Shown here one piece after another: positions 6,001-63,920 of a stretch of 64,000 bases of DNA. The position numbers were made by a program, and so were the translations under genes. Within the stretch, counting starts at the first letter, position 1. Each line of letters begins with the position of its first letter. The notes beneath the pieces are model-generated. The model saw only the letters and a list, made by a program, of their open reading frames with translations, was not told the DNA's origin and did no database searches. Origin of the DNA: Membranipora membranacea (Eukaryota > Bryozoa > Gymnolaemata > Cheilostomatida > Membraniporidae); the NCBI GenBank assembly GCA_914767715.1, contig OU612070.1, positions 28,570,025-28,634,024 of the forward strand, given 5' to 3'.

Positions 6001-9000
6001 AGGAAAACTATCAAAAATGTGCAGCATTTTGCTCAACTTATTCACAGGTCAGCACCCTGTAGAAGTCCTATTCCTCTTTGAAACTTCTGAAATGTCAGAA
6101 ACTATTTCCCAGTTTAATGCAATAACAGGCTCAAAATATCACTTTGTAACTTCACATCAGGAAACAAATTACTATGCAAAATTTGTAAAGCTCATAATTA
6201 CCTTTATGTTATAAGGCCTGGGAGCCTGATTCACCTAATGCAGGCTAATCACGATATCATTATATTATATCATGATACAAGTTAAAATGTCATTGCAAAT
6301 TCGAGTTGTCTGCCCTTAAGCTGTATAGTTCAATGAGTACACGACTCCGACTTGTTCTGTCAAACCTGGTCTGAGTTTTTATATATATCTATATCTTGTC
6401 ATTAAATGATTATTGTTTAGGTTGAGTGAGTATGTTACATGTATGGGTAACCCAGAGGAGATGGCTCATCAGCAGTACACAGATTACAGCTCATTCATAT
6501 CTGCTTTCCAAGAGCCTGACTTCGGCGCCAAAAACCCCGTTCTGAGGTATTTTACCTGCTTTGCTTCCTTATTTTATTTGCTTGACAATTCATTAGTGAC
6601 AAATTAATTCAAGCTTAACATTGTCCTCCTTATCGTAAAAAGCATCAATAATAAATCCCAAGACTAATTGATCCCTAAACATTGTAAACAGTATTGCTAG
6701 AGTCACTCAGTAATACAACAATCACCCTGTTTTGTAGATATCGATCGACAATAAGGAGTAATGCCTGTCACCTGTTAGTTAAAGCACCTGCTGATATAAC
6801 CGGCTTCACTGAGAATGAGGCTAAGAACCTATTTAGGTGTGATGAGTGTAAGAGAATTCGAACTCAAGTTTTATCTATGAGAGGTGAGCAATTCTCTATA
6901 TGCCTCATTGAGATAGTCGATGCTCATTTTAAGCAGAGCATGCGTTCTTCTGCGTGAAACCTAAAGAATCCAAATTATGGGGATCGTTTGAGAAAATTAT
7001 TCCTTTTGTGTAAGTGTTACAGTTTGCACTGTAAATGTTAAAAAAAAAAACTGTTTATTCACGTAATGTAACCCTAAAATAAGTATTGTCTTGATTCTCT
7101 ATGACGGGCATGTTCTCATCATTTATATGGGATTGAGAGTAAATTTCCAATCATGCTCACTCTTTTAGTTTTTTCATACCACTAGATTTGAGTGGGGATG
7201 TAAAGGATAACTCACATTACTACTGTCTCGGTGTTGCTCTGTGTTGTTGATGTTTGCTTACATAGTATACTTATTCTATTTGCAGGATTGTTCTCGTTGA
7301 TAGATGGCCCCAAAATACCTGACAATGAGCAATCAAGAAAAAAGAGACTGCAACTCCTTAAAGAATGTACCACCAAGGTGAGTTTTCTCACTACAATAAA
7401 TAGATCTACAAACTCATTTCTCCTGTCTGAATAATTTTTATTTGTGTGGACTGTGACTGGATAGAATTTGTTCATGAAAATAATTTTCTACAAAAACTAT
7501 GATATAAAGCTGTGTTTGTATTCACAAGCTGTTATTGGCTGAGGGAAATTAAGAATTCCCATAGACTCAACAATAAACCAGTTTATAAATAAGTCTATGA
7601 GACTTACTCTTACTATATCATCTAACCGGTACAATCTTGAGTACTCTGAAGACCATAATAGCTTATTATCGGAAAACTTATCTATTATTGTCACATAACT
7701 CTCAGTATCGGTACCATTCTATCGCAGGAGGTACTGGCTAACCGAGTTGATTTGCTGGAAACACAGATAAAAAGATACCAGAAACTTTTACCAAGTGGTA
7801 AGCAATGTTTTACAATGAAGGCAACAAATAAGTCTCAAAACAGCAGTAGTTACAGATGGTTATCTGGCGTTGGGTTGAAAAAACAACTTTGAAAAGCTGA
7901 GTGACTCAGGGTCATGCTTTGCTCATGTTGACAGTTACAGTGTGGGCAACTAATATGGAATTATCGGTTGTACAAACCCTTCTCGGCCCAAATCCTAAAA
8001 ATCGAGGAAGGAATTATTGAAATCACGTTTTGATAGCACAATTGTTAGGGAGTACTCAATTACATGATCTATATATGTTTCGACAATTTTCAACTAAAGA
8101 AATGCTTATAATGGACACATTTGGGATTTTTCAGAACTACAAGGACAGTCTGATACCATCACTCTGACCACCGAATCATCAGATCTGGAGCTAACAGAGC
8201 AGACTATAGTCGCTATAAAGGAGACAGATCTACAGACAGCTGATAATACGAGCGAGCTCGTAGCCTCTATCTCTGAGGAGTGCTCTGGTATGTATCTTCA
8301 AAAGATGTCATTTTCCAATCATATTTTCCAATCATATTTTCCAATCATATTTTCTAAATATATTTAGCTGAAAATACTTTATTTCTTGCTTTATTATTAC
8401 ATTACTGTTTGTCACATCCAAGGGATTTTTATTTTAAGCAGCTTGAGCCTCTTTTTATCTGTGAACATGTCTGGAGAGAGAGTAATAAATTAAACAAACA
8501 AACGTTTTCATTAGGTGTCCAGGAGAGGTATACACCCGAGGGTGCTGGGGGCTGGAACAATCAACAATGAAAGCTCCCCCAGTGGGGCTCGAACCCACAA
8601 CTCCTGCGGCACTAATCGCCTGGCAGTGAATAGCAAGCGCGCTAACCGATTGCGCCATCTCACCATCCCCAAAAAAGAATGGGTCGATGGCGCTAATTAG
8701 ATAGCCCGCTATTCACTACTCGGAGTTGTGTTCTCTCATCCCACAGCACATAATAATAATAATAATAATAATAATATTATAAATAAAAACACAACTTGTG
8801 CACAAAGGATAAGAATTCTTAGATTAAGAATAAGTGTTGTTATTTGCGATCGATTGAATGATCTTACACATTGCTGATTGATATAATGTGTTGATTTAAA
8901 AATCTAGGTTTACCTTAGTAAATATATAGGGTAATGATATATTCATGTAGATCAATTATATTGTTCCCCTAATCCCTAATGTAATTTTTCTGGTAAGAAT

Positions 9001-9323: not shown

Positions 9324-11285
9324 ATCATGGATTATAATCCTCGAAGTTGCTTTTTGTTTTTTTTACTGCTATTGTATCTATGTAAATTAAAATCAAATTT
9401 TATCACTTATTGTTGTGTGTGTGCTTTAGGATGCTTATGAGAAATAGATCTTTATTTTTATCAGTTTGTTCATATTGTAAAAGTATTCTTACATGCAATT
9501 CTGGATTGTTCCTTTTCTCTTTGCGGATGAATTCGTCTAACTCCTGCTTCTCTAAGATTTTATGCTCATATAGAGTACATCTTATTTTTGTTACATGTAC
9601 ATTACCAATAAATGTTTTGGACGAGAAGACAACTTTTATGCATTAATTGTAACCTTCATGTTCAATTCAATTGAAGCCTGTCGATTACCAGTGGTCTCAA
9701 CTGAATTCCAGCAATGAACTAAACCTTTAGTTCATTGATTTAGTTGGAGGTTTAGTTCATTGATTCCAGACGGTGGGAAAGCTTTATCAGCTGATGTAAA
9801 ATGCAACCCTTTTTTTCTCATTCCGTTACGAACAAAAGCTTCACAATGATGTGTTTACACTCACTTTGTTTGTAATCAGTTCTACATGGATATATGTGGT
9901 TTTGTCTTGCCTGAATCATTCTCCCTGCCTGCATCCACACTTATAATACAAATTTGCACTGATCATATTAATACAGCAGATCATATGTAGAGTCATCCCC
10001 TCCCTGTGAGTGCATAGGATTTCTAAATTAGTATTCTTATAAGTATCGAGACTTTAGGTCGATCTAAAGTAACTTATAAAATCTCTCACCTATGGTCTGA
10101 GTTCCTAAAATCAGTTTCTGGTGTAACAATATGGCGCTAAGGTCATAAGTTTCCCAAAAAAGTTGACTGGTCCCTTCAGCCACTTTTATATATGACTTGA
10201 TCTGGCCTTAGCTGCCGCAAATAGAGTAAAACCAGACAAGTGAAGGGAATAACTGTTCTATATCATCCATATTCAACAAAAAGGGAATCAAGGTATGTTG
10301 ATGAGCTTTGAGTCTATGCTTGTTTGTTGTATTTATTTTATTAATTACCATCATCACGCTCAAGGTCGGTGAGCCATCAATAGGAACAGCAGTTTCACTT
10401 TACTCTGTTTATATGTTGATAATACAGATATATTTCTGCTGAAGAGGGATGTAGCCTGTCCAATGAGTGTGACTTGTGGGTTTTGTTTTTGTAGGGCCTG
10501 TTAATTAATGAGATGTATGTGTAGTTGAAATTTCCAAACCCGTCCCATGGCATTTCATTCAATTTGTAAAATTTGTATGTTCATTGAATTCATATGTTAT
10601 ATCTTTATATTTAATAATGTGGTATGAGTGAATGCATGATGATGATTAGCTGCCTAGCTAGTGAAGGTGTTTTCAATCTGCTATCTCTTCAAGACAATGA
10701 GACATGATGCCAGCAAGGCAGCAAGAGTCGGTGTATGATTTCTAACAGCGATAGATGACTGCGACTGTGACTATAGTATAAAAATAAGAGTCTACATCTC
10801 AGTCTTTTCCTGCCTGTCAATATAATACAACACCTTTCGAATCAGCTAGACCGCCATAGCTGGGCCTTCAAAAGTTTTTTTAACGAAGCATAGTCTTGAG
10901 GTAGCAGTAACAGTAAAGAAGAGCTGTTAGTTGAAAAGACTGCTCACAGTATCTTTGGCGGTCTTGATTTAGGCCCCTACCTATGACTCCTTAGCTTGCT
11001 AAGAATGTATAATCCATTCAACCTTTCTGACTGTGTAATCAGCTAGCGCCGGCCTTTCCTCCCCCTCCCCACACACAAGTCATACTCAACTCATTGTCTT
11101 GTGTTTCGATTACAGAGTCTTGTCACCAGCAGCTAGATCGCATGGTGGAAGAGTGATAATAGAAGAAGCTGATACACCATAGCTACATACAGGCAGCCAT
11201 CAAGTAATTAATCCGAGGTGTCCACTAGCTTTAAATCAGAATGGTAGAGTAAGCAGCACCTACACGTTTCACTGACCATCTAGCT
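9324..11285. other. Intergenic: IRF-fusion 3' UTR and upstream region of PPP4R3
   Basis: No convincing coding segment. It holds the 3' UTR of the IRF gene, a short direct repeat (TTAGTTCATTGATT, near 9729-9765), and presumably the promoter and 5' UTR of PPP4R3 at its right end. No clear TATA box was found. Confidence 0.5.
9607..9612 (+). terminator. Candidate poly(A) signal of the IRF-fusion gene
   Basis: An AATAAA lies 284 nt after the stop codon, followed by a T-rich stretch. The 3' end itself cannot be seen. Confidence 0.4.
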
Positions 11286-17200: not shown

Positions 17201-20200
17201 TTCCAACTTTCATTAAAAGGTCAATGGTCATTAAAATAGGCAACATGCAGGAAGATATATAATCTTATCACATAGTATAATAATATATATGCTATATAAT
17301 ATAATAATATCTAATACTTTATTTTACAGAAGATTACAGTACAGCACAGTTACTTAATCTGACAGTGGAGATGTTAGCTTTCTGTGCAGAACACCACTCC
17401 TATCAATTCAGAGTTCACATGATTAAACACGAACTACTTAGGAAAATACTTTACCTTCTCAAATCAAAACATGCATTTCTAGCCTTGTGTAAGTACTATA
17501 CAACAGTCTGTATTACTCTCTTGTATTCCACTATCGATATATACATTTGTCCCTGCAGTTTTTGTATCTTACCATTATTGTTATTTACTGCATTTTATTC
17601 TTCTGTATAATAGTACCAGAGACTATAGATATATCTATAGTCTCTGATAGTACAGTGAAAAAAAATGACCTAACAAGACATGAAATGTTTTGTTTACACT
17701 ACTTAGTTGTGTTTCCTTGAAAAAATTAAGAGAAGACAACTTGATCATTGTGTCCCTTGTATTTTCCTGATATTTGTTTTTGGCTAAGTTATAATTACAA
17801 GTTTACGTATCCCATATTGTAAAATGAGCTCTAAAAACCAAGCTACTCACCTCCCTGATCATGTTGAGCTAATATGGAGCTTAACGTATTTCATTTGCAA
17901 ATTTGTTATCACATTTGGTAGAGCCTTATATGACCAAGTCACAAAACAATATTGCAATATTACACACTTTTTCCAATTCTTACCTCTAATTTTTGTGTCT
18001 AATTGTTTCTTCTAGGCGCTGTGAGGTTCTTGCGGAGACTTGTCAATCTGAAAGACGACACATATAGCAGACACATAGTTCAGTACGGACTCCTCAAACC
18101 TGTCTGTGATGCCTTCTTGTTAAACGGAGATCGATATAACCTGTTCAACTCTGCTGTCATTGAATTGTTTGAATACATCAGAACGGTAGGTTCAACTTAT
18201 TGCCTGGCTAAGTTCTGGTATCAGTTTTGAGTCATTGGCTCCAATTTTTTTTTAAATTCCTGATCCTTGAAACTTTCGATGCCATAGATAGTCTACAATC
18301 TCTCCTTCAAAATATCGACAACTTCCTGCTGGATATAATTATGGCTCAACAAAGTTACAGTGATTCTCATGTTCTTAATGCACCTTTAGAAGCTGGTAGT
18401 TGAAATGGTTATTTTACTGCAGTTTTATTAGACTTTTACTGCAAGATGTTAATCATTGATAGTAAGGTTTCACTCAATTCTTGCACTGTTTCTTCGAAAA
18501 AGAACTAATATGGTTTACGTGAAAGCGTGTATCAGGGCGGTCTACTCAGATAAACCTCCCATCAATATAAAATGGTAATTAGGGGATCAGAAGATTAAAC
18601 GTTAGTAAGACATTTAGGTTAGGTGAAGATGTTTAGATCAGATTAAGACGATATCTATATGACACCAATTCCATAAGGTAAAAGTGCCACATGGAGAAGA
18701 ATTTAAGTATCCTTTTGGTTTTTGGCCAAAAGCCAACTGGCAATGGAAATAATATAAAAAAGAGTCCACATAAAAATACCCACTGTCACCAAACTTGATG
18801 TGTAATCTTTTCTTATCTGTGCAGATGTTTAAGGGATGTTTTATCACAGAGTTAGGATATATCCTTATTACTCGTTGATGCTATCATATTTTTGAGAATC
18901 TCTAGCTTTGCGTCTAACTAATTTGCTAATACTGAAGGTATTTGAAGATGACTCAATTTGCGAACTTATTGTTTTTGCAGGAATCATTGAAGCTGTTAGC
19001 GACTAACTTTGTTGAGTATCACTATAAGAATGGATTCCAGCATATCAAATATGTGAAAACATTTCAGCAACTAAAGGATCAGTTTGATAACAGGCCCACT
19101 TCTAACACAAGTCTAGCTGCAGCTGATGATGGCGTTGAAGGAATTGACACGTAAGTTCAAGGCCACACCTCACCTATCATAATTAATTATTGTTCATAAC
19201 TCTATAAAAATGCAATACAAGCCACTCACTGGTGCAGAAATCTAAGAGCATATCTAACTGTGAGGCATAGGGCGGTAATCTCCAGCACAAATATCAACAA
19301 GGACCAACCTTAGACCAGCCAAGGTCACTATTAGGTTAAGATCTACAGAAAAGCGGTAATCTCCTCTTTTCTGTGGGCGCATCATAGAGCTTAACCAAAC
19401 AGTGACCTTGACTGGTCTAAGGTTGTTCCTTGTTGATATTACTGCTGGAAAGTACGTGTTGTCACTAGAAGACCCACCCCTGATGGTTTGGTTTGAATAC
19501 GTCCTCTTATATTGTAGATTTTCAGCCATGGCTAGACAGAGGAGATATCGCAGAGACAACTCCTCGTTCGATGAAGAAGAGGAGATGTGGTTTGAGAAGG
19601 AAGATGAGCCGACAGAAGCTGCTAGTGTTGATGCTGCCGGTAATAAAACTCCTCCCTTTGATCACGCCGCGGCTGCCGATGAGGTCGCTATGGAGGATAA
19701 CGTGGCTCCTTGGCTGGCTATGCCCACTAAACCTCTCATCAAAGGTATGACTTTGTGTCAATCTAAAGAGATGATCAATGTACAAAAACCTCATCGAATT
19801 GCACCACAAAACATAAAACAGTAAAATAGCTTTCTACTGCAGGTATGGGCAAAAAAACAGCAGCAAAATTATGTTGGGAGTATCATTATGACCTGACCCA
19901 AAAAGAGATTCTGGGTTTGAAAAGCTAAGTCATGTTCATGTTCATATTATGAGCATATAATAAGCATGTACGACATTACATATGTTCACAGAGTAAGGAT
20001 ATATCCTTACTCTGTGATATGTTTATGGCTCTGCCACTCTCTAACACATATTAATAAAAAGGTTATAACATGATAACAAAGCTAATAAATGGATATGGTT
20101 GGTTATTTGACAGATGATGAAGATGATGATTCTGCATTTGGCAACGGTCCAAAACTACAGAGAGCCATCAGTATAAACCTGAAGTCACTGACGAGCGCTG

Positions 20201-26600: not shown

Positions 26601-29600
26601 TGGGGCACAGTATCGTGCACACAGGTTAGATCGACTCATAGACATAATATGTGTAAGGCTAAGGCTTTAGTTTGGTTAACCTCAACTTGTCCCTGATTCA
26701 ATACAAAAAAAAGGTACCGAACTTCTCTGTTGCTTGTTATAATAAAGCGTTTTTTTATTTACAGTCAGAACCTGGGTAATGGCTATCGCCCACAGACGTG
26801 TGATCCAGTGCTATCCTTCGGCTTTGTGAAAACTCACAAAGCTGGATCGACAACTCTTATATCGCTTTTTCAGCGATTCGGATACAGACACAATCTCAAG
26901 TTTGCTCTGCCTAGGCGAGGTGAGAGCACTGATCAAATATGATATAATCTGCCAGAATTTTGGCTAGAGCCGATTCTTGACACAAAGCTATATACTGAAA
27001 TTTCTCCACAAATAGCCATACTGTGTAATTTACCACTAATCCATGAATTGATATCAACGGTTGAGAGGTATACCCCATGTGTAGTTTCGAGGTGGATAAT
27101 TAGGGAAAAAGTGGTTGTAAAGCAAGTGTGAGAGGCTATCTCTAGAGCTTGTCCCTACCGATTGTTTATACTTTCACATCAACTAATGCCTTTCCATCAT
27201 GATCTAGAGCCCTGGTGAAACTACAAAAGACACTCCTAAGAGCATGACAACAGCTGGGGTCACGGGTTCATATCATCACTTCTTTTGTTCAGATGCCAGA
27301 AAAAATATAGTGGATTGCATATTTATATAGACAAGCTGTAACACTTATGTAAACAAAGAAATTCCGTGAACAAGGAAGTCTAGACGAGTTTGCTCTATAT
27401 TCACATATACCTCATCTCTTTACAGGTGATGTCTTTGCCGGTTGGCCGTATATTTTGAATCCAGAAAAACATCTTCTCCCTGATAAAGATGATGAGATGA
27501 AGTTTGATGTTCTCGTTAACCATGCTGTATTTAACAAATCTACATTCACGGATATACTGGACAATCCTAAATTTATAGGTAAGTAATTCAAGTGTGGTGG
27601 ACCATTCCACAGTGATGATTATTAGAAGTTGTTGTTATCTTACGTTTGCAGTGTTGTCCTAAGATCTATTCAAAAAATGATCATCGTTCAAAACATCCAG
27701 TCCTCCCCTAGAAAGCTAAATATAGTGGCCATCACAAAAGAATAATATCATGTCCGAAGCATCTCGAGAAAAAGCTTTGTCAAGATCTATATTTGCTAAC
27801 TATAAACCTGTGGAGGCCGGGGCTTCACCCCAGACCCCTCAATACCACTATGTCGATGCTTTATCAGATTATTGCCTCAGCCTCCCCTACCATTTTTTCC
27901 AAACAATACAGCCCTGAGACGTTCGAGTTGTTTTCTTTATTTCTGTTTCGATTTTTCCTTAGGACTAGTTGTGTTTAATCAATGCTAGCCTTCCAACTTT
28001 GACCAATCAGTTTGTATGCTCTCTAAGCTTTCGGTCAAGTTGTCTCCTATATTTAGATTGGCCACTGCAGGCTAGGTCCTATTAACTCCGTTCTTTTCTT
28101 ATTCTCTCAGGAGTTGTAAGGAGTCCACTCACCCACATCAAATCTGTGATGAACTATTTCCAGAAAATGTTAATTCCCGAAGATGAAGTAGGAAAATACT
28201 CGATGATGGAGCGCATTATCAGGTTTGTGGGATAGAATGGTGTTGACTCAATTCAATACTTACATAGCATTGATCTCAAGGTCGAAGTGAATAAATTAAA
28301 GCTTAATTTGTCGAAAATATAAGTACTAAATTTCAATTTGAAGTATTTGATATTTATTGCAGCCTCGCAGTATCATCTCCCCATTTTGAGTCAAGTTGCA
28401 GATCTGGGTAATTGCGAAGGTACTAAATCGGTCATTGGTAATAGCTATAAACATATTAATACTCATTTATATGTTTATGGTATAGTATAAGACCTACATA
28501 AACTGATATAATAGTGTTACTGACTGTATTTTAGTGTATATAGCCAGGCACTGTATTATATCACAGAGTAAGGTTATCCGGGGGGGGGGGGGGGGGGCCG
28601 TCGGACGAGGGGCAAATGTCTGGGGGGCTCAGACTAGCTATCCTACTGTGATTAGTAGGATATCCTCTGTGATATATCTGTGATATATCTGTGATATATC
28701 TGTGATATATCTGTGATATATCTGTGATACTAGGATATCCTCTGTGATATCCTCTGTGATATATCTGTGATACTAGGATATCCTCTGTGATATCCTCTGT
28801 GATATATCTGTGATATATCTGTGATATATCTGTGATATATCTGTGATATATCTGTGATATATCTGTGATATATCTGTGATACTAGGATATCCTCTGTGAT
28901 ATCCTCTGTGATATATCTGTGATACTAGGATATCCTCTGTGATATCCTCTGTGATATATCTGTGATACTAGGATATCCTCTGTGATTATATGGATGAACC
29001 ATTGTATTGATTTATTTATTGGCTATCACTCGAGAGTGAAATTCTGCGAGAAGAACGCCATCTAACATAATATCACAGAGTAAAGATGATAATATGCAAA
29101 AAACAACCTCCGGTATTCTATATCTGTCTAATCTGTCTGCATATCTCAACCAGATACTTCCTTTTGGCACGATTGTGAAATAATCAGGCTTTTAGTATCA
29201 TTCTAGAGTTGTTAGTCTCATTTATATTACTGCTTCAAGTTTATAAACAGCCTGTGACCCACACTGATTCTCCCTGCTGTGACCCACACTGATTCTCACT
29301 TAAAATTGAGATGAGAAGGTATTAAAAAGGTACTATATAGAAACTGAAACCTCGTCACAACCACAAAATTTGAATTTCGTAGGCCACATTTTTTGAGGAG
29401 GAAGTTTTTTTCGAGGTGTAAACTTTGGAATGAAACCAACGTGAATTGATTAGCTAATTTGCTAATTTGAAAAAATCAACAGCTGACAGGTAGCACTCCT
29501 TTTGTTTTAGCTGATAATTTAGTAGCAGCACTGCCTTTTGTTAGCATGTCATACTGTACCATGCAGTCGACTAACGATGAGTTATGCTGAGAGAGATGCT

Positions 29601-32600
29601 GTGATATGATCATTGTATAGTGCTAACTAAAACAGAACAATGAAAAAAATCAACATGTCAGCACCCGCTGCGACTTTTTGTATTACTGAGACCTCCTTGA
29701 ATCGTTATCAAGCATATTTTCCAATGTTTTTGGTACCGTTTTACAGCTACATTCAGATCCAGATCGGATCTCTAGCTTGTCTCGATTTTCTCACAATGAT
29801 GGGATATATGAATTCTATAATATAATATAATATAATATAATATAATACATATTATATTTTTAGATTTGCTGACAACCCAAACTACTACGATGGTATAAAT
29901 GACCGAATGAAAAATACAAAAGATAAAAACTTCCATGTGAGATCAGTCACTAAGAACTTCCAATCTGCTGACTTCGGACTCAATCGGTACGATATGGAGG
30001 ATCCAGAGAAGGTAGGTCTATATGAGCATTAAAGGGGAGAGAACAAAGAATAAACCACCATAACATAACGCCATTAGCCAGCATGTGAATACCTCGCATC
30101 CTCTGAATAATGTGGTGGTGTATCTAATCTATCATAAAGTAGGTATTCAGAACTGAGAGAAAGTATGGCTACAATAAAGAGTAACTCTGATGAACAACAA
30201 AAGGCATACAAAAGGGTAAAGTTTGAACTAGGGTGTTTTATGGCAGAGGCAAAGTCTGACTAATGTGATGATTTTGGCGCGGTACCTGACAATCTGAGTC
30301 TGAAGGTCAGGTTCCGAGCCATAATCATCGCATTAGTCAGAGTTTGTCTCTAACAAAAAACACCCTAGTTCAAACTTTACCCTTTTGTAGGCCTTTTAGA
30401 GAAAGTATGGTTACAGTAATGGTTACGGTGAGCAATAAAAGGCTTTTATTGCTCACCGTAACCATTACTGTAACCATACTTTCTCTCACTTACCTGCTCA
30501 CTTACCTGCTCAATACCTGCTTCACCGACCTACAACTGATCTGAAACGGCAGACTTTTGCCGCAGGCTGAATATGTAGATAGTGAAAGTTTTCTTGCAAG
30601 GAAAAACCTTAGAATTTGAATAAATTAAACATTGAATAAGTAAATGTGGCTAAAAAAAAAACGCTACAAGCTTAGCTATATTCTCAAATTAATTGAATAA
30701 TTAACATACTGATTTTTGAGAATCCAGCTTTTCTTTAAAATTTGAATTACATGAGCTAAAAAGCTTATACCTTCTTGCTGGTTCCCAGAACTGATAAATG
30801 AGCAATTAGATAGTTAATCCTCTTCTAATCTTGTTCTAAACAGCTCATAAAATATCTTGCTATCATATTTGCCATCACAGTAATTCATCTCTGATGTAAG
30901 ATGTCATGTTTTTTTTTTCTCATTATTGCCCTTCTGTCACCACAGATACTGCTAAAATGTGGCCACACCAGGTTTCTCTTATTTCGAAAGCTTCAAATCA
31001 TCCAATAATGATGCACTTTCTTACAAGTGAGAAATCCTTCCCTCCCTCATTTCTTGATTGTGGGTTTCTATTGCTCAACATTGCCATGGCCCTATCTCTT
31101 AACAACAAGTGTATATAATCTAAGGGATTAGATATGCTCTATCACAAACTTAACTTGGCCTGGATACTGTTAAGACAAAACTGGCCTAACCTCTCCTCTT
31201 TACACCCCTTACACTCCTGACCTAATCTCCCCCTTACGCTCCTTCTTATACCAGGTAACAGAGTTTATGGAGGACCTAAAACAGTCATTCCCCCTTCTGC
31301 TGGTGATGGAGTATATGCATGAGAGTTTGTTATTACTGAAGAGAAAGTGGTGCTGGGAGCTCAATGACATTCTCTTCCTGCAGAAAAACGTCTTCAAATA
31401 TCAAAGTGAGTTGAGTGTTGGCTTAATAGTAAAGGAAGACTTCAAGGCTTTCCTCAAAACAAACCTCAATCAAATCGATTCAAGAACTGTTTGTTGTTAA
31501 GTTCTGCTCATCAAGTTAAGGGAACGCAGTCCAGTTTCTCACCCTTATTGACATGGGATCTAAAAAGTGACCATATCTTTGTACTTATCTTGCATAACTT
31601 GATAGTGTCTCAATTCACGATGCTCAAATCAGTAGCATTGTAGCTCATTGGCTTCATTGATTCAAGATACACAAGGAGTCATGCCAATGAGTCTTTCCCA
31701 TAACTAGACAAGAGGATCTAATCTGAACTCTGTTTATTTTAAGATAAAGCAGACCCTATCCCACCACAAACGGCCGCCAAATTGCTGAAATGGTCAAGTG
31801 CTGATGTGATTCTGTACGACTATGCCAACAAGACATTGTGGTCAGAAATAGCCAAGGAGAAAGACTTCCAGAGTGAACTGGCACATTATAAAACAGTCAA
31901 TAATCTGGTGGGAGCCTTCTGTAAATCAAACGTCTATATACTCAGAGTAAGTATTTATACCAGGCCCGTAGTTCTAGGGGAGGCAGGGAGGCACTGCCTC
32001 CCTTAGAAAGCTAAATACAGTGTTCTAAGAACACTATAATTTAATAATCCATATTTGAATAAGCTCCCATGCGATTTCGATTTGCTTATCATATGCCTCA
32101 AATTGCTCGGGAAGGCGCTGACTGGTGATGTTTCTGACTCGCCACAAACTTTTGCCTCCCCTACCATTTTTTTCTTCTAAACTACGACCCTGTACACCCT
32201 TACTTCACTGAATCCTCACTAATGTCCAGATAAAGCAAGACAAAAGTCAGGAGCAGACAACTTGGAAATCCCATTGTTGATGTGGTTTACTTCTTGTATC
32301 GGATTTTGCATTTTCAGTGTACTGGACACAAATTTTCAAATAATAAGCAAAAATTAGTAGTTACGAGAAAGAAATTGTTATCTGTCATGCTTGTTATCTG
32401 TTCATTTGTCATCAGATGGTACAACATTTGATAGGGACTAACTTAATTAGAAACAGACTATTTAGCTTAATTGAATAAAGTTTATTCCATCATCCCTGAT
32501 TCCATATCTGATTCTTAATTCTTGTTAAACTTGGAGTTGCTCCTACATATTTTCATATATCTACAAAGCTGCCCATCCCTTTACGCAAGTACTTCATATC

Positions 32601-37640: not shown

Positions 37641-37745
37641 TATTGTCATCATTGTAATCTTAAATCGTGCTGAAGTTTGGTCATTATAGATCAAAGGAAA
37701 AAAGAAGGGGGGGGGGTAAAGCATTATAAAACCCTAAACCATATG

Positions 37746-38692
37746 GGAGAGGTATACACCCGAGGGTGCTGGGGGCTGGAACAATCAACAATGAAAGCTC
37801 CCCCAGTGGGACTCGAACCCACAACTCCTGCGGCACTAATCGCCTGGCAGTGAATAGCAAGCGCGCTAACCGATTGCGCCATCTCACCATCCCCAAAAAA
37901 GAATGGGTTGATGGCGCTAATTAGATAGCCCGCTATTCACTACTCGGAGTTGTGTTCTCTCATCCCACAGCACATTCCAATCCACCATTGCCACCCTATG
38001 AAACACAGCGTACGTGTTAGGGTTATTGGCCTTACATGGCCCATTGCTGGGACCCCTTGTAGTAGGTTTAGCTGTCTTTCCAGCTTGTCAGCATGTCTTT
38101 CCATGCTGTCACATGTCTTTCCATGAGTCAGTCAGTAGACAAGTACACAGGAGAGGTATACACCCGAGGGTGCTGGGGGCTGGAACAATCAACAATGAAA
38201 GCTCCCCCAGTGGGACTCGAACCCACAACTCCTGCGGCACTAATCGCCTGGCAGTGAATAGCAAGCGCGCTAACCGATTGCGCCATCTCACCATCCCCAA
38301 AAAAGAATGGGTTGATGGCGCTAATTAGATAGCCCGCTATTCACTACTCGGAGTTGTGTTCTCTCATCCCACAGCACATTCCAATCCACCATTGCCACCC
38401 TATGAAACACAGCGTACGTGTTAGGGTTATTGGCCTTACATGGCCCATTGCTGGGACCCCTTGTAGTAGGTTTAGCTGTCTTTCCAGCTTGTCAGCATGT
38501 CTTTCCATGCTGTCACATGTCTTTCCATGAGTCAGTCAGTAGACAAGTACACAGGAGAGGTATACACCCGAGGGTGCTGGGGGCTGGAACAATCAACAAT
38601 GAAAGCTCCCCCAGTGGGACTCGAACCCACAACTCCTGCGGCACTAATCGCCTGGCAGTGAATAGCAAGCGCGCTAACCGATTGCGCCATCT
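37746..38692 (-). mobile_element. Tandem array of a 404-bp unit containing the tRNA-derived SINE
   Basis: Two full 404-bp units (37746-38149 and 38150-38553) are followed by a 139-bp truncated third (38554-38692). Each full unit is a roughly 230-bp SINE plus a roughly 175-bp spacer (containing GTCTTTCCATGCTGTCACAT). The units look essentially identical, so the duplication is recent or maintained. Each SINE has a - strand A box (TGGCGCAATCGG) and B box (GGTTCGAGTCC). On the + strand, a degenerate second half (ATGGCGCTAATTAGATAGCC) mirrors the first but lacks the anticodon part. Confidence 0.85.
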
Positions 38693-39695: not shown

Positions 39696-41574
39696 ATGGG
39701 AAATGCAGACAATGAAAGGCAACAGCTGATATGCCAAGATAAAGCTGTTGATGACACAGACAGTCTCGATAATAAGGTAAAAACCGGAACTATAATAATG
39801 TTGTTGGGTGTCCAGTTTTTGATGACGTGTGTGGATTACATGCCAGTACCGTTCTTGCCGAAGGAAGGTGGCATCAGAGGACTGAATGAGATACAAATGG
39901 GTATCATAATCGGATCTTATGAACTGGCTAAGACACTGGTTTCTCCTTTCTGTGATAAAATAGTAAGTATGATGTAATTACATAAATATGTGCATGTACA
40001 GTGATATGATATCCCATATCAAGCTACTTCTGGATTGTACTAATCATTTGTCGACTGTAGGACAATAGCGATAACTAAATCATAGCTTGATTCTGCAGTG
40101 AACTATGCAATAGAACAAAAAAATTGTCATATATAGAGATGAAAGACCAGCACGGAGGTAAATTAGTGAAAATTTAATCTGTTTATGTTCATCATCTTTT
40201 CCTAATTTTTATGAATGCGGACTTCCACATAAAACGACTACAAAAAACTTCAAGTGCGATGATTCGATTCATATAACAAATTTTCTTCATATTGTAGCGC
40301 AACCATTCACTAAATTTAGATATGTCAAAACTAGAACAGGAGTTTTCCTTCTGCGGATGCAGAGGAAAATTTAAAAAGCTGAATTTCATGGCGCCACAAT
40401 TTCTGACTTTTGCAATAAGCACTTCGCCACCTCAGAGGGAACAAACTTCTATGTCAATGCAGTTTTTCTTCATACAAATAGGATTTTACCTCAAGTAGAT
40501 TTACAACAAATTGGTCTGTGTCCTTCAAGGCATTTTACTCAGGTCTAACGAGAACAAGCTGTAAAGTAACGAAATTTATTAACATTTGTGTTATAGCCAA
40601 ATTTAGACGGAATGGGTTCAGAGACTGTTCTATTTTTTTATTAGGTTGTTACTCTCTTTTTTAAGTAGATCGGTGCTATGGAGATCTTTCTTGTTATAGA
40701 CAATATGCATTCACAACAACATTCTACTAGACCAATGCATGTTTTTTTCAAAGCAGATTTTCTGAATCGCCCATAATCATAATCACTATTTTATTTCACA
40801 TTTTATTCTTAGGCCAAAAATCTATATAACGCAGCAAGGAAGATTGTAAAAAATTCGCCAATTAGTGTCGGCACTAGACTAGATGAATTGACAAATCCCT
40901 TCGGTCAGGACCCATTAACACCTGGTCAGATACTGAGGAATTTTCCTAAGTATAAGGGATGATTTATTATTAATGTGTTAGTGGTGTGTTATAACCAGAG
41001 ACTATAGATATATCTATAGTCTCTGTTATAACTACATGTATGCCTGTAAAATAAGTTGACTCAGCATTTCCCATGCTCAGAAAATAATAAGTCAACTCTA
41101 AAAGTCGCTCTAAACTATTGGACAAGATGACTATTTGACCAAAGTGGCCCGATGGCTAAATTGAGTCGCTTTTGACCAGAGTCGGCACGCTATAGGCCAG
41201 TTATCGCCCCATGGAAACTAACTAATTGTTAGCTAACGGTGGGTCGCGGTATGGTGATCAAGGTGTTACCTGTGATATAGAGAAAAATCAACTGTCATGA
41301 CATACATCCAAAAAATGAAGAGTACTGCAACAGAGTCTCAATTAGGAGGCACTAACTGCAGAAAGCCCATGAGCGGCAAGGGCAAAGATAACTAACTAGA
41401 AAAGACATCATTATGTCTCTAAATGTTGAACCTTTCAGTAATGCAGTTTTGATGAAAAACATCACTGATTTACTGATTTCCTGTTACCCTTCATTAGACA
41501 ATAATAATCAAGTAAACATCATTATTTCCTTGCGATGCCACCAAATCTAAGTCCACTGTCCTCTGATATTTAAC

Positions 41575-49100: not shown

Positions 49101-49326
49101 ACATGATAGAATCCCCTCAAGACCCCTACATGATAGAATACCCTCAACACCCCCACATGATAGAATACCCTCAACCCAAGGAGTTGTAGACAACTCCTTG
49201 CTCAACCGCACCTCTTATTTTACCCCCAAATCACTTGTGGCTTGTTTTATTTTGTAGTTTATTGTCTTCACCACATACCTTATTTACATGCAAGCAGCAG
49301 GTAGGCAGTTAGTGAAGAGACAATGA
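39696..49326 (+). CDS. SLC18B1: SLC18B1-like MFS transporter
   Basis: The product is a 12-helix major facilitator membrane protein; the vertebrate relative SLC18B1 is a vesicular polyamine transporter. Exons: 39696-39962, 41811-41884, 43098-43242, 44015-44083, 44966-45053, 45909-46045, 46430-46525, 47492-47598, 48096-48191, 48514-48685, 49258-49326; all phases agree, giving 439 aa. Recognisable segments are helix 1 (TIIMLLGVQFLMTCVDYMPVP), FLPKEGG and GIIIGSYELAKTLVSPF, the FGMTGY-to-ALSNVSTAS region, GFAGGYFVGGIFYKFLGFE (conserved Gly-rich helix 5), a central acidic loop (CEDGEGESYFDML), and NGYEEDNMHTFAK...GSMLGPPLSGAI near the end. The short C-terminus ends LVKRQ. Orthology to SLC18B1 rather than another SLC18-like carrier is likely but not proven. 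The transported substrate is inferred only from the family. Confidence 0.82.
40813..40962 (+). CDS. Candidate unassigned terminal exon (49 codons) in transporter intron 1
   Basis: An open frame begins directly at a good 3' splice site (TTTATTCTTAG, whose TAG would itself be an in-frame stop) and ends at TGA. It reads AKNLYNAARKIVKNSPISV, then GTRLDELTNPFGQDPLTPGQ, then ILRNFPKYKG. The composition is protein-like and charged. The phase (0) fits the end of transporter exon 1, so it could be an alternative last exon giving a truncated product, or a relic of another gene. I do not recognise the sequence. Confidence 0.35.
   Translation, partial: AKNLYNAARKIVKNSPISVGTRLDELTNPFGQDPLTPGQILRNFPKYKG
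40989..41032. mobile_element. 30-bp palindromic miniature element, copy 2, with 7-bp target duplication
   Basis: 40996-41025 is identical to the palindromes at 17617 and 63456 (left half CAGAGACTATAGATA). TTATAAC lies on both sides (40989-40995 and 41026-41032). It is inside transporter intron 1, 26 bp after the candidate exon. Confidence 0.85.
41577..41605. repeat. (TA)n microsatellite
   Basis: About 14 TA dinucleotides lie in transporter intron 1. Confidence 0.9.
44405..44590. repeat. Minisatellite of about 57-61-bp units, three copies
   Basis: The unit starts ACCACACCATATCCTAATCG and ends GCCCAAACACAAG; copies 2 and 3 are identical and copy 1 lacks a GTTA. It lies in a transporter intron and creates spurious open frames on both strands. 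Confidence 0.85.
44627..44712. repeat. 27-bp tandem repeat, three copies
   Basis: The unit is ACACCTATGAGTAGTCCTGT followed by TAGTTTT. It lies just downstream of the 44405 minisatellite in the same intron. Confidence 0.8.
46053..46164. repeat. (CT)n/(CCCT)n microsatellite next to a splice donor
   Basis: A CT run interrupted by CCCT units starts about 8 bp after the donor of transporter exon 6 (exon ends 46045). A pyrimidine-rich tract of this length so close to a donor could affect splicing. The long Ser-Leu open frame here is an artefact of the repeat. Confidence 0.9.
49080..49170. repeat. 28-bp minisatellite, three copies
   Basis: The unit is CACCCCCACATGATAGAATA followed by CCCTCAA, with small changes between copies. 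It lies in the last intron of the transporter gene. Confidence 0.8.
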
Positions 49327-49335
49327 CCCTGATAC

Positions 49336-49573
49336 TTATACAGGGCCGTAGTTCGAGGTGAGGCCGAGAGGCACTGCCTCCCCTAGAAATCTAAATACAG
49401 TGGCCTAAAAACACTAGAATTGAATAATCCATGTCGGAATCAGGTCCTCTGGAACTTCCATTTGCTTATTATATGACTTAAATTGCTCGGGGAGGAGGTT
49501 ACTGGTGATGCTTTGGACACGCCTCAGACTTTTACCTCCCCTACCATCTCTTCTAATCTACGGCCCTGTTATA
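49336..49573. mobile_element. About 228-bp MITE with CAGGGCCGTAG termini and a 5-bp flanking repeat
   Basis: The element spans 49341-49568, from CAGGGCCGTAG to CTACGGCCCTG (perfect 11-bp inverted ends), flanked by TTATA on both sides. It begins 14 bp after the transporter stop codon, so it must lie in the 3' UTR. CAGGG-type ends recall hAT elements, but those usually give 8-bp duplications, so the class is left open. Confidence 0.8.
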
Positions 49574-50072: not shown

Positions 50073-52031
50073 AATTGGCTTTTCACAAATAAAAGCTCTT
50101 TTCTCCATACAAGGAGCATCATGCCACAGGAATCCGGCTCTCTCCTCAGCCATGAACACACAACCCTGGTTAGGGTTGTTCTCTGGTTGGTTACAGGCCC
50201 AGTCAGACTCTGTGAGAGGTAGCGGTCTCTTCTGATATTCTACCCAGAACCAATCCTTGTTCACTCGCCTGGCTCCAATCCAAAGTACACTTCCAAGCTC
50301 TTCAAAAAAAACCAGGTGTAACAGTGTAAAAATGTATAATAATAATAAAAATGGTGAGGAGGTTTGGAGGGTTTGGAGGTTTGAAATTGGTCTCATCTGT
50401 GTCGCGTATAATTGTGGCGCTCTGAACAACAATAGAGAAGGAGAGATGGCGAGATGGAGCAACCAATTGGTTAGTGGCTTAGTGCTCTTATTATTAACTG
50501 CCAGATTGGGTTAGAGTTTCATTTGGGGAGCTTTCATGATGGATTGTTCCAGCTCTCAGCATCCTAGAGTGCCAATTAGTTTAAGTGCGCAGACGGCTGC
50601 AATCCAAGTCAGTGGCATTACATTATCAAATTAAGTGTTTGATAATGTAATGTAGAGTGAATCTATCTCCTGTTTCCATTTTAGGAATGACCTCTTCAAG
50701 CGTTCAACCTCCCGGCTAATGAGCCTACCAGAAAATGTTGATCAACAGTGGTTTAGGGCTTGTTCTCTCGGGTTGTTCTTTACTCACAAAATAAAAACCA
50801 CAACTAAATTTCTTGACTGACCAGGCTTCCCGCGTCTCAATGTTTTCATGACGTTGATCTCCTCTCTTGTTCGGTACATGGCGAGGTTTCCTCCCGACAT
50901 GACACACACCTGCTGGGCTCCATACCAGGTTTGTGGTTGAGTCTCAAACTTGTAACACTTGTTGAGTGAAGTCTCCACCCATCCCTCATCGCATGCTGCG
51001 TCTTCAATGTGTACATAAATAATATCTATATTATACCATAGCTACACAGGTTTTACATCCTAGGTTGAAGCATAACCTTAACTCATGTAGCAGTTACCCG
51101 AGATTAAAGCCTTTTGTTATACCTGCGAAGGATACCTTTTTCTTCATCTTGATTGGATTTTTTTTTCTTGACGACAGATTTTGAAAAACATTTCAATCAG
51201 TTCAGTTGTGCCATCAAAATTTTAAAAAAATGACTAACTGCAATATGCGACTAGTAAGCTTGGAAACAAAAAGACTTAAATCATGGATGAAACACCAACC
51301 TAAAGGTATTCTAATATCATGACCTGACAAACTTTGGACTTCAATCATTGATGTCATCAAGATCTGTTCAAAGCCTTCAGCTTCTGCTAACCCGTTAATA
51401 ATCGGCCACTGGCTCTCGGTTGGTCCCACAAATTAAACCCGCTAATCAGTCTATTAACTCAGACAACGGCAGAGTAGTGGGCTTATTTACCTGGTAAGAC
51501 TATTTATAACACCAACAACAACCATTGATAAGACATCTCACCCTGAGATACAATCTCTCTGCTCCGAAGCGACAGTGTCGAAAAATTGTGCAATTTACAT
51601 ATTGCCTATAGAAGTTTACGTTTTATAAGTGCGGTTGACTTTTCAGTTTGAGAACTCAAGCATAATTGGATTAATCCAAACAGGACAGTGCAAAGATACC
51701 CAACCTGGGAACTGATTAGTTGCACACATAGAGTCTATAATAACTCTATGGTTGCACATGCCCAAAGTGCCTACATTTTGCACCACAGAGGAGCTCTTTT
51801 TGACGAGCTATCTTTTATTGAAGAGGCCTTGCTGCTGAGGAATTGACTCGCATCATTTAAAAGAGGAGATGATAAAAACCAACTAGACTTGTAATAAACT
51901 AACATTATTGAGCCTCATAATTAAATTTTCAAAGATTTTGGAATTGACTCTTTTTAACTTGATAAGTAAGCCAGCTTACCTGCTTTCCATATCACAAAGA
52001 ACAAAAGGGTAGATACAATAATGAACTTCAT
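50070..52031 (-). CDS. Secreted single-domain C-type lectin
   Basis: The product is a predicted secreted sugar-binding protein of 153 aa. Exons in transcript order: 52031-51980, 51001-50822, 50299-50070; both introns are phase 1. Exon 1 is a signal peptide (MKFIIVSTLLFFVIWKA). The lectin fold follows: DEGWVETSLNKCYKF, QTWYGAQQVCVMSGGNLA, WIGARRVNKDWFW, then NQPENNPNQGC, WHDAPC and RAFICEKPI. The cysteines expected for the long-form fold are present (ACDEG, KCYKF, QQVC, ACNQ, NQGC, APC, FIC). The calcium-site motifs are unusual: PEN where EPN or QPD is typical, and W-H-D for WND. Calcium-dependent sugar binding is therefore possible but not assured. Confidence 0.85.
50615..50653. repeat. Hairpin in the lectin intron
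   Basis: CATTACATTATCAAA and TTTGATAATGTAATG are exact reverse complements around an 8-9-bp loop (TTAAGTG). There is no flanking duplication. Confidence 0.7.
51719..51758. mobile_element. 24-bp imperfect palindrome with 8-bp target duplication
   Basis: 51727-51750 runs from CATAGAGT to ACTCTATG with 8 bp between the arms. GTTGCACA lies on both sides (51719-51726 and 51751-51758). It is in lectin intron 1. It resembles 22526-22549 and, in its CA...AGAG/CTCT...TG ends, the 30-bp palindromes. Confidence 0.7.
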
Positions 52032-63227: not shown

Positions 63228-63920
63228 ATGCCTTTATCGACAGACAGCTGTAGTGAGGACAGTAATATCGGCAGTCCAGTGCTGAAGAGTCCCAAATTAG
63301 AAGGTAGGTGGTCAAATCTCACACTTAGATGAGGAACATTTATCTATTGATAACATTATAAAGCCTTTCATATATATACTCTTCCATATATATACTCTCC
63401 CATATATATACTCTTCCATATATATCCCTTTTATGTTCAGATAATAAATTGGTACCAGAGACTATAGATATATCTATAGTCTCTGTTGGTACCACAAGTA
63501 TAACTCTAATTTGTCTTCTGAAACACAGAATACCATGATTGTTGAGCTTTTGATGTTTTCACATGGGCGTCGGTCTCGCTGTGATAACCAAGTTAGATGG
63601 TTACAGCATAGTTTCGTGAAAAGTTAAAAGTACAGAAATAGAAAGCAATTATTTATTATTTTTTTGTGCTGTTATATAGACAACAGGAACCATAGAAGTT
63701 TGGCTTATCGATTCAGTCTATCTATGTTTTGTTTTTAGACCCAGCAGGGAGAGTGCCTCAGGATGGAGAGTCTATATGTTTCTCACCAGAACAGATAGCC
63801 TGTGTTTGTGAAGCATTACAACAGTCAGGGGATGTGGAGAGGTTGTCCCGATTTTTGTGGTCACTTCCACCCAGTGAACTTCTCAGAAGCAACGAGTCTG
63901 TGCTCAAAGCAAGAGCTGTG
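63228..63920 (+). CDS. SIX-class homeobox transcription factor (3' partial)
   Basis: Exons 63228-63303 and 63739-63920 give the first 86 residues; the homeodomain lies beyond the window. The first exon is Ser-rich. The second begins the SIX protein-interaction domain: [40 protein letters not shown]. It shares features with both SIX1/2 and SIX4/5, so the subclass is not assigned. SIX proteins act with EYA and other partners in developmental control. Both splice sites (G|GTAGGT and TTTTTAG; then GTG|GTGAGT) are good, and the second intron cuts the SIX domain. ATG 63228 is the only start in frame with the second exon. Confidence 0.93.
63364..63428. repeat. 18-bp tandem repeat in SIX intron 1
   Basis: About three and a half copies of CATATATATACTCTTC (with CTCTCC variants). 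Confidence 0.85.
63449..63492. mobile_element. 30-bp palindromic miniature element, copy 3, with 7-bp target duplication
   Basis: 63456-63485 is identical to the palindromes at 17617 and 40996. TTGGTAC lies on both sides (63449-63455 and 63486-63492). It is in SIX intron 1. Confidence 0.85.

Follow-up and report, generated by a model that had tools for sequence, protein, structure and literature searches.

Palindromes and 7-bp duplications in the window

The window analysed here, a stretch of 64,000 nt from the Membranipora membranacea genome (contig OU612070.1), contains two PP4R3 exon pieces (17308-17607 and 18003-18227) that match neighbouring parts of PF04802, as well as a SIX-domain exon piece that matches SIX1_SD. 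A perfect palindrome of 30 bp, CAGAGACTATAGATATATCTATAGTCTCTG, is found here in three exact copies, at 17617-17646, 40996-41025 and 63456-63485. Each copy is bordered by a 7-mer of its own (ATAGTAC, TTATAAC and TTGGTAC, respectively) that is duplicated exactly on the two sides, differs from site to site and extends no further than 7 bp; together with these flanks the three features occupy 17610-17653, 40989-41032 and 63449-63492. The window scan agrees with the preliminary description, which had reported the same palindrome at three loci with separate exact 7-bp repeats, and the duplications bear out its proposal that transposition took place at each site. Its placement of all three copies in introns could be established for the first one only, which lies between the PP4R3 exon pieces; the third lies 5′ of the SIX-domain piece. 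A homology search with one exon of the window yielded two proteins, neither of which carries a name. When up to three mismatches were allowed no further match to the 30-mer was detected in the window, and 100 shuffles gave a mean of 0.00 matches, ruling out a chance origin of the three palindromes.

A search of the 339-Mb genome (18 contigs) returned 150 exact copies of the 30-mer, with none in the reversed control. Flanks were read for 47 of the 150, namely 44 on contigs 1-3 and the three in the window; two of these (L074 and L084) represent a single duplicated locus. An exact 7-bp repeat was present at 42/47 sites, six of seven bases matched at four and four of seven at one, and at no site was the repeat longer than 7 bp; random re-pairing of the flanks produced 1.8% exact matches. 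The most frequent bases at the 42 exact sites, with strands pooled, give the target motif TGTAGTnnnACTACA, in which several positions reach only 50-60%. The number of copies in the window, 3 of 150 in 64 kb, exceeds the 0.028 expected under uniform spread, although the window was chosen for them. The three copies are spaced about 23 kb apart and local hopping is possible; tests for clustering along contig 1 (P 0.09) and contig 2 (P 0.52) fell short of significance. The exact 30-mer was not found in viral contigs.

Apart from AT runs, the perfect palindromes in the window with arms of at least 9 nt are the three 30-mers and a fourth 30-bp palindrome, CACAGAGTAAGGATA followed by TATCCTTACTCTGTG, at 19987-20016 (19980-20023 with its target-site duplication (TSD), ATATGTT). 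We assign the first three to family 1 and the fourth to family 2, and refer to the arrangement of TSD, left arm, join, right arm and TSD as a scar. A wider scan added a 24-bp scar of family 4, CAAGGAGTTGTAGACAACTCCTTG, at 49177-49200 (49170-49207 with TSD CTCAACC) and a 51-bp scar of family 3 at 9712-9762 (9705-9769 with TSD ATTCCAG), whose 15-bp inverted ends, CAATGAACTAAACCT, enclose a filler in which part of the end occurs again. All six start with CA, end with TG and are flanked by 7-bp repeats; the three beyond the 30-mers of family 1, like the two less certain features below, are absent from the preliminary description. Once rows starting in a tandem repeat at 28600-29020 had been dropped, the wider scan retained 17 rows in the window, with repeats of 7 bp in six, 6 bp in one, 5 bp in four and 4 bp in six; ten Markov shuffles gave eight rows, with repeats of 4 or 5 bp and none of 6 bp or more. 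A scan for 7-bp repeats with looser ends found seven cases in the window, where 50 shuffles averaged 0.52 and never exceeded 2, and when all 16 terminal dinucleotides were tried in the window under the stricter test, only CA gave 7-bp cases.

Two further features, which came up with the looser ends, are assigned with less certainty. A probable scar at 51719-51758 consists of 24 bp, CATAGAGTCTATAATAACTCTATG, at 51727-51750 flanked by an 8-bp repeat, GTTGCACA. A possible insertion at 28555-28991, taken from the loose scan with its chance expectation of 0.52, comprises 423 bp (28562-28984) with family-2-like ends, CACAGAG, and the TSD ATTATAT; its interior is made up of a run of G and 11-bp tandem repeats, which resemble the end of the element. 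It is possibly a relic element or a scar with a long filler, and in the latter case could be a scar with runaway filler, that is, the birthplace of a tandem repeat.

Other repeats were also noted in the window. A decayed relative of the family-2 scar, beginning CACAGAGTTAGGATATATCCTTA, lies at 18845-18874 and has no recognisable TSD. A 228-bp repeat at 49341-49568 has CAGGGCCGTAG as its inverted ends and TTATA as a 5-bp repeat; it is 82% like a copy at 31961-32172 over 212 bp, and the two probably belong to a different transposon family. Two adjoining long hairpins occupy 30199-30486 (arms of 99 nt at 87% and 44 nt at 100%), and tandem repeats at a 404-bp spacing occupy 37744-38692, with one more copy at 8520.

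A P-type transposon with the same ends

The preliminary description had taken the 30-mer to be the transposed unit itself, two inverted ends with no interior, and had proposed a search for a transposase-bearing element with the same termini. We found that half of the palindrome, CAGAGACTATAGATA, matches the genome at 431 places (225+206; control 0) where the next base is not T. Continuation of the half into other sequence is thus frequent, whereas it should be rare for a unit of 30 bp alone. For the longer sequence CAGAGACTATAGATATA, again with any base but T next, the count is 338 (170+168; control 0), which includes paired ends with TSDs at a distance of about 1.25 kb, as well as one pair 4523 bp apart. 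The latter element (L065) has perfect 32-bp terminal inverted repeats (TIRs) starting CAGAGACTATAGATATAG and an exact TSD, GTTAGAC.

Separate open pieces within L065 match, above the cut-off, the THAP domain PF05485 (9.6e-10), the N-terminal TNP-like RNaseH domain PF21787 (two pieces, 7.6e-22 and 4.6e-11) and the C-terminal RNaseH domain PF21789 (1.7e-9). The element encloses two of at least 134 genome matches to the P-transposase domain PF21787, as obtained in a profile search in which 150 of 211 candidates were scored (control genomes, 0/14). The four L065 pieces compared, which may lack a region because of introns, gave no hit to the P GTP-binding domain. A 1.26-kb copy with an exact TSD (L042) aligns to both ends of L065, at 82% over 294 bp and 84% over 422 bp, and copies of about 0.5-1.25 kb constitute MITE-like members of families 1 and 2. 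The combination of THAP and TNP-like RNaseH domains, inverted ends starting with CA and a TSD of 7-8 bp is that of the P superfamily. Taken together, the TIRs and TSD of L065, its transposase pieces and the L042 alignment identify family 1, at the level of sequence, as a P-superfamily transposon. Elements of the hAT superfamily also have CA/TG ends, with an 8-bp TSD; the 7-bp TSD and the P-type transposase rule out this assignment.

Among the closest known systems is Galileo, a member of the P superfamily that likewise combines a 7-bp TSD (consensus GTANTAC), a palindromic target and a P-superfamily transposase, as far as the available part of PMC4168063 describes. It differs in its TIRs, which are unusually long according to a separate abstract. 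The motif TGTAGTnnnACTACA also resembles the AGT/ACT halves of the P and 1360 targets given there. The word "footprint" does not occur in that paper on Galileo and 1360. THAP9-type P elements of zebrafish share the P-type transposase and a short TIR but differ in their 8-bp TSD (PMC7776569, in part); no value for their stagger was found in the portion of that paper available, and the THAP9 paper PMC8230255 contains none of the stagger terms searched for.

The inverted ends, TSDs and many copies of the 30-mer are features of MITEs, and a 30-bp "nano-MITE" of two 15-bp inverted ends, moved in trans and spread by copying, would account for 150 identical copies and for exact 7-bp TSDs at 42 of 47 sites. 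However, the 30-mer has no interior, full elements of ~1.25 to 4.5 kb with the same ends exist, and TSDs also flank those scars of this family that are joined differently (24 bp, 32 bp and repetitive inserts). Different joins at like sites, together with the long elements, speak indirectly against a repeated unit that itself transposes. Moreover, a synapse would have little space to form between two transposase-bound ends separated by only 30 bp, and the frequencies of the joins track annealing strength in two families (below). We therefore consider it very unlikely that the 30-mer was itself the moved unit, and favour the alternative that it remains where a P-superfamily element has left.

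Arm lengths and joins of the scars

In Drosophila, P transposase cleaves the 5′ strand at a point 17 bp within the element (PMC7776569), and P excision leaves a 17-nt 3′ tail on each chromosome end (PMC2895639), according to the parts of these papers available. We compared the arms of the scars with the parent ends in three samples, and found that the sampled termini are mostly scars rather than elements. The first sample comprised 50 loci chosen by 15 nt of the end plus a 16th base other than T, with L128 counted on both strands and L121 left out as a duplicate of L120; it contained three full-element ends and 47 scar rows. Here the left arm matched the parent ends for 17 nt in 37 of 47 rows, for 15 nt in five, 16 nt in three and 18 nt in two. 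The opposite arms, which except in L128 were not selected by the pattern, measured 3-18 nt in the 40 rows with a right side.

The second sample (50 loci; 11 full ends and 39 scars) was drawn with a pattern that forces at least 17 nt. Left arms of 17 nt were seen in three rows, 18 in 21, 19 in 14 and 22 in one; the 18th base, G, is ambiguous in that what is left of the right arm in the most frequent join starts with it as well, and the 19-nt arms lie mostly within short AT-rich repeats. The family-2 sample of 26 loci, in which L153 and L068 are one place, contained 12 full ends and 13 scars, and arms of 17, 18 and 19 nt were found in five, six and two of the scar rows, respectively. A right side was called where an element-like end was accompanied by a TSD matching at five or more of seven bases. 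On this basis it went unrecognised in 7/47, 6/39 and 9/13 scar rows of the first, second and family-2 samples, and where it was recognised the TSD was exact in 25/40, 26/33 and 2/4. Two of the end variants used in matching arms are known from scars alone; the left-arm counts were unchanged when only the two variants seen on full elements were used. Right arms that read CAGAGACTATGG belong to a subfamily for which no full element was seen.

The scars accordingly have TSDs on both sides and TIR remnants of up to about 17 nt, as in excision footprints, with exceptions of 18-22 nt. Similar products could in principle arise if the palindromes were internal deletions of the transposon formed in templated gap repair rather than joins of 17-nt tails: incomplete synthesis followed by end joining has been described after P excision (PMC2895639, in part), and shorter, internally different copies are present in this genome. 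End points generated in this way should, however, scatter through the 32-bp TIR and beyond, whereas the arms pile up at 17 nt, and a single arm of 20-32 nt (22 nt, in a tandem repeat) was seen among 99 scar rows. Abortive gap repair is thus an extremely improbable source of the palindromes, and the pile-up, in combination with the known Drosophila P mechanism, points instead to excision with a 17-nt stagger.

When joins of two CAGAGACTATAGATATA tails were enumerated, TATA on TATA was the longest annealing that entails no loss of tail, and its product is exactly the 30-mer. Lower-ranked joins include the 24-mer (17+7, through an internal TATA), which is found at 60 places in the genome. On contig 1, a pattern of tail, gap of 0-12 and 13-nt arm gave 44 family-1 cases: 20 30-mers (annealing overlap of 4 bp), eight 32-mers (overlap of 2 bp), no blunt 34-mer and 16 others. 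The latter include AT-centred palindromes of 36 bp (two) and 40 bp (one), which outnumber the blunt 34-mer and need added bases. One family-1 34-mer was present among the matches listed on contig 2. For family 2, whose own 17-nt tail yields its own 30-mer by the same route in the enumeration, the same gapped pattern had 420+418 matches, and the first 52 listed comprised 37 30-mers, ten 32-mers, one 34-mer and four others. Counts for both families were made by eye, with a pattern that is blind to shorter joins such as 28- or 24-mers.

In L050, L149 and L034 (near 1501) the filler contains repeated TATAGTC, with several head-to-tail copies in L034 and L149, a smaller-scale parallel to the filler at 28562-28984. 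Judged by eye, the repeated copies resemble the templated inserts that Chan et al. describe (PMC2895639, in the part available). The junctions consist of microhomology joins (30-, 32- and 24-mers) and repetitive inserts, the templating of which was assessed by eye.

By sequence comparison, family 2 behaves like family 1, and family 4 partly so. No transposase was tied to the ends of family 2 or family 3, and for family 2 a comparison by eye of the first 100 listed ends showed no PF21787 match between them. Family-4 tails (CAAGGAGTTGTAGACCT) have no self-complementary end; the 15-mer of this family has 161 genome matches versus seven in the reversed control. TSDs matching at five or more of seven bases were present at 19 of 21 family-4 loci, nine of which (L178-L186) had been picked for having both ends close together. 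Four loci are 34 bp long (L072, L178, L180 and L181), and L178 and L181 are perfect 17+17 palindromes. The 24-mer at 49177 in the window is among the enumerated joins of 17-nt family-4 tails and is repeated in L190 with a different TSD.

Candidate parents of family 4 were rejected. The predicted form, CAAGGAGTTGTAGACAA plus a base other than C, was found at one place, which is itself a scar; ...GACCT is the more frequent tail. One family-4 terminus has a P transposase near it, and the presumed other end is a scar with a differing TSD, in two copies with shared flanks. This candidate pair, C5:29289913/29292632, was discarded since its right end is the scar, and C2:32194159/32198148 is its duplicate.

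Scars can themselves be insertion targets. At L123 (106-136) a family-1 scar is nested in a family-2-like scar with flanks GTAAGGA and GTATGGA, and GTAAGGA occurs once per strand in the family-2 30-mer. When 102 joined-flank probes were compared with the sampled loci, no clean empty copy of a paralogous site was obtained.

Excision and repair as the probable source of identical palindromes

We propose that each palindrome is very probably an excision footprint of a P-superfamily transposon, closed by microhomology joining, as judged from the sequences and by analogy with Drosophila P. An element of the family represented by the 4523-bp transposase-bearing copy and the ~1.25-kb copies inserted and duplicated 7 bp, a step that the termini, TSDs and transposase pieces show. 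Upon excision, a strand would be cut 17 nt inside each TIR, leaving 17-nt 3′ tails, CAGAGACTATAGATATA, on both chromosome ends. These tails, identical on opposite strands, would then anneal at their last four bases, TATA, followed by filling and ligation to give a perfect palindrome of 13+4+13 = 30 bp between the two TSD copies. The arithmetic matches the 30-mer exactly; the joining itself was probably mediated by microhomology, perhaps by a pathway of the Pol theta type. Alternative joins of the same tails would produce the 24-bp, 32-bp and longer related scars. A circle junction is ruled out, as it is the inner ends that meet in the palindrome rather than the outer ones.

Under this model the identity of the 150 loci would stem mainly from repeated parallel repair, with the same two tails joined at the same TATA each time and not from copying. 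Neither of the explanations put forward in the preliminary description, recent spread or constraint on the sequence, is needed. In particular, a functional palindrome that is bound by a protein, as in an enhancer or insulator, and is held identical by selection would fit exactly identical copies, one of which lies in a PP4R3 intron and another near a SIX gene. Since the site-specific 7-bp duplications, the variant joins and the parent transposon explain these facts without selection, we assign this reading a negligible probability and retain excision and repair as the source of the palindromes.

Scars of this kind are already known: the excision footprints of Drosophila P are a direct precedent. 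In Table 1 of Chan et al. 2010, as represented in the available part of PMC2895639, 68 sequenced junctions of fly P excision include 14 joined at (AT) and five at (TA), both of which form palindromes between TSDs, and a long-microhomology join that also occurs 14 times. Enumeration of joins for the Drosophila tails ranked first the 32- and 30-bp palindromes, which are the joins at five and 14 of the 68 junctions; in the rows compared, these two perfect palindromes make up 19 of 27 short-microhomology junctions (PMC2895639, in part). The bryozoan scars resemble those junctions in layout: between the two TSDs, two TIR remnants of at most 17 nt meet at a microhomology or are joined through inserted bases. 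The fly system differs in its 8-bp TSDs, its single engineered element, the use of Rad51-mutant flies and the equally common long-microhomology class (PMC2895639, in part), whereas the present scars are natural, have 7-bp TSDs and derive from several families.

What is added here is a natural record, comprising hundreds of scars of more than one family, with 7-bp TSDs, in a genome other than that of Drosophila; a 17-nt stagger can be deduced from this record. The Drosophila P element is the only one for which we know of a description of a 17-nt staggered cut. Among the titles and abstracts listed in literature searches that cover few subscription journals, none reports palindromic scars of natural origin in other organisms, a result that falls short of proving that they are undescribed.

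Of particular interest is that such a record, natural and from outside Drosophila, implies conservation of the 17-nt stagger. It is probable that this stagger is an old property of the P superfamily, that the genome preserves hundreds of natural excisions whose junctions read out microhomology repair (perhaps of the Pol theta type), and that the 150 identical 30-mers reflect convergent repair and not descent. Palindromes without an interior but flanked by TSDs look like an impossible transposon, and repeat finders could count them as a copied MITE family; identical short repeats need not have common descent. Scars of this type may serve as a fingerprint of the transposase, in which arm length reports the stagger, TSD length the target cut and the mix of joins the repair pathway. 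The stagger of other P-type transposases could then be read from sequence alone, which makes the generality of the 17-nt stagger in the superfamily directly testable.
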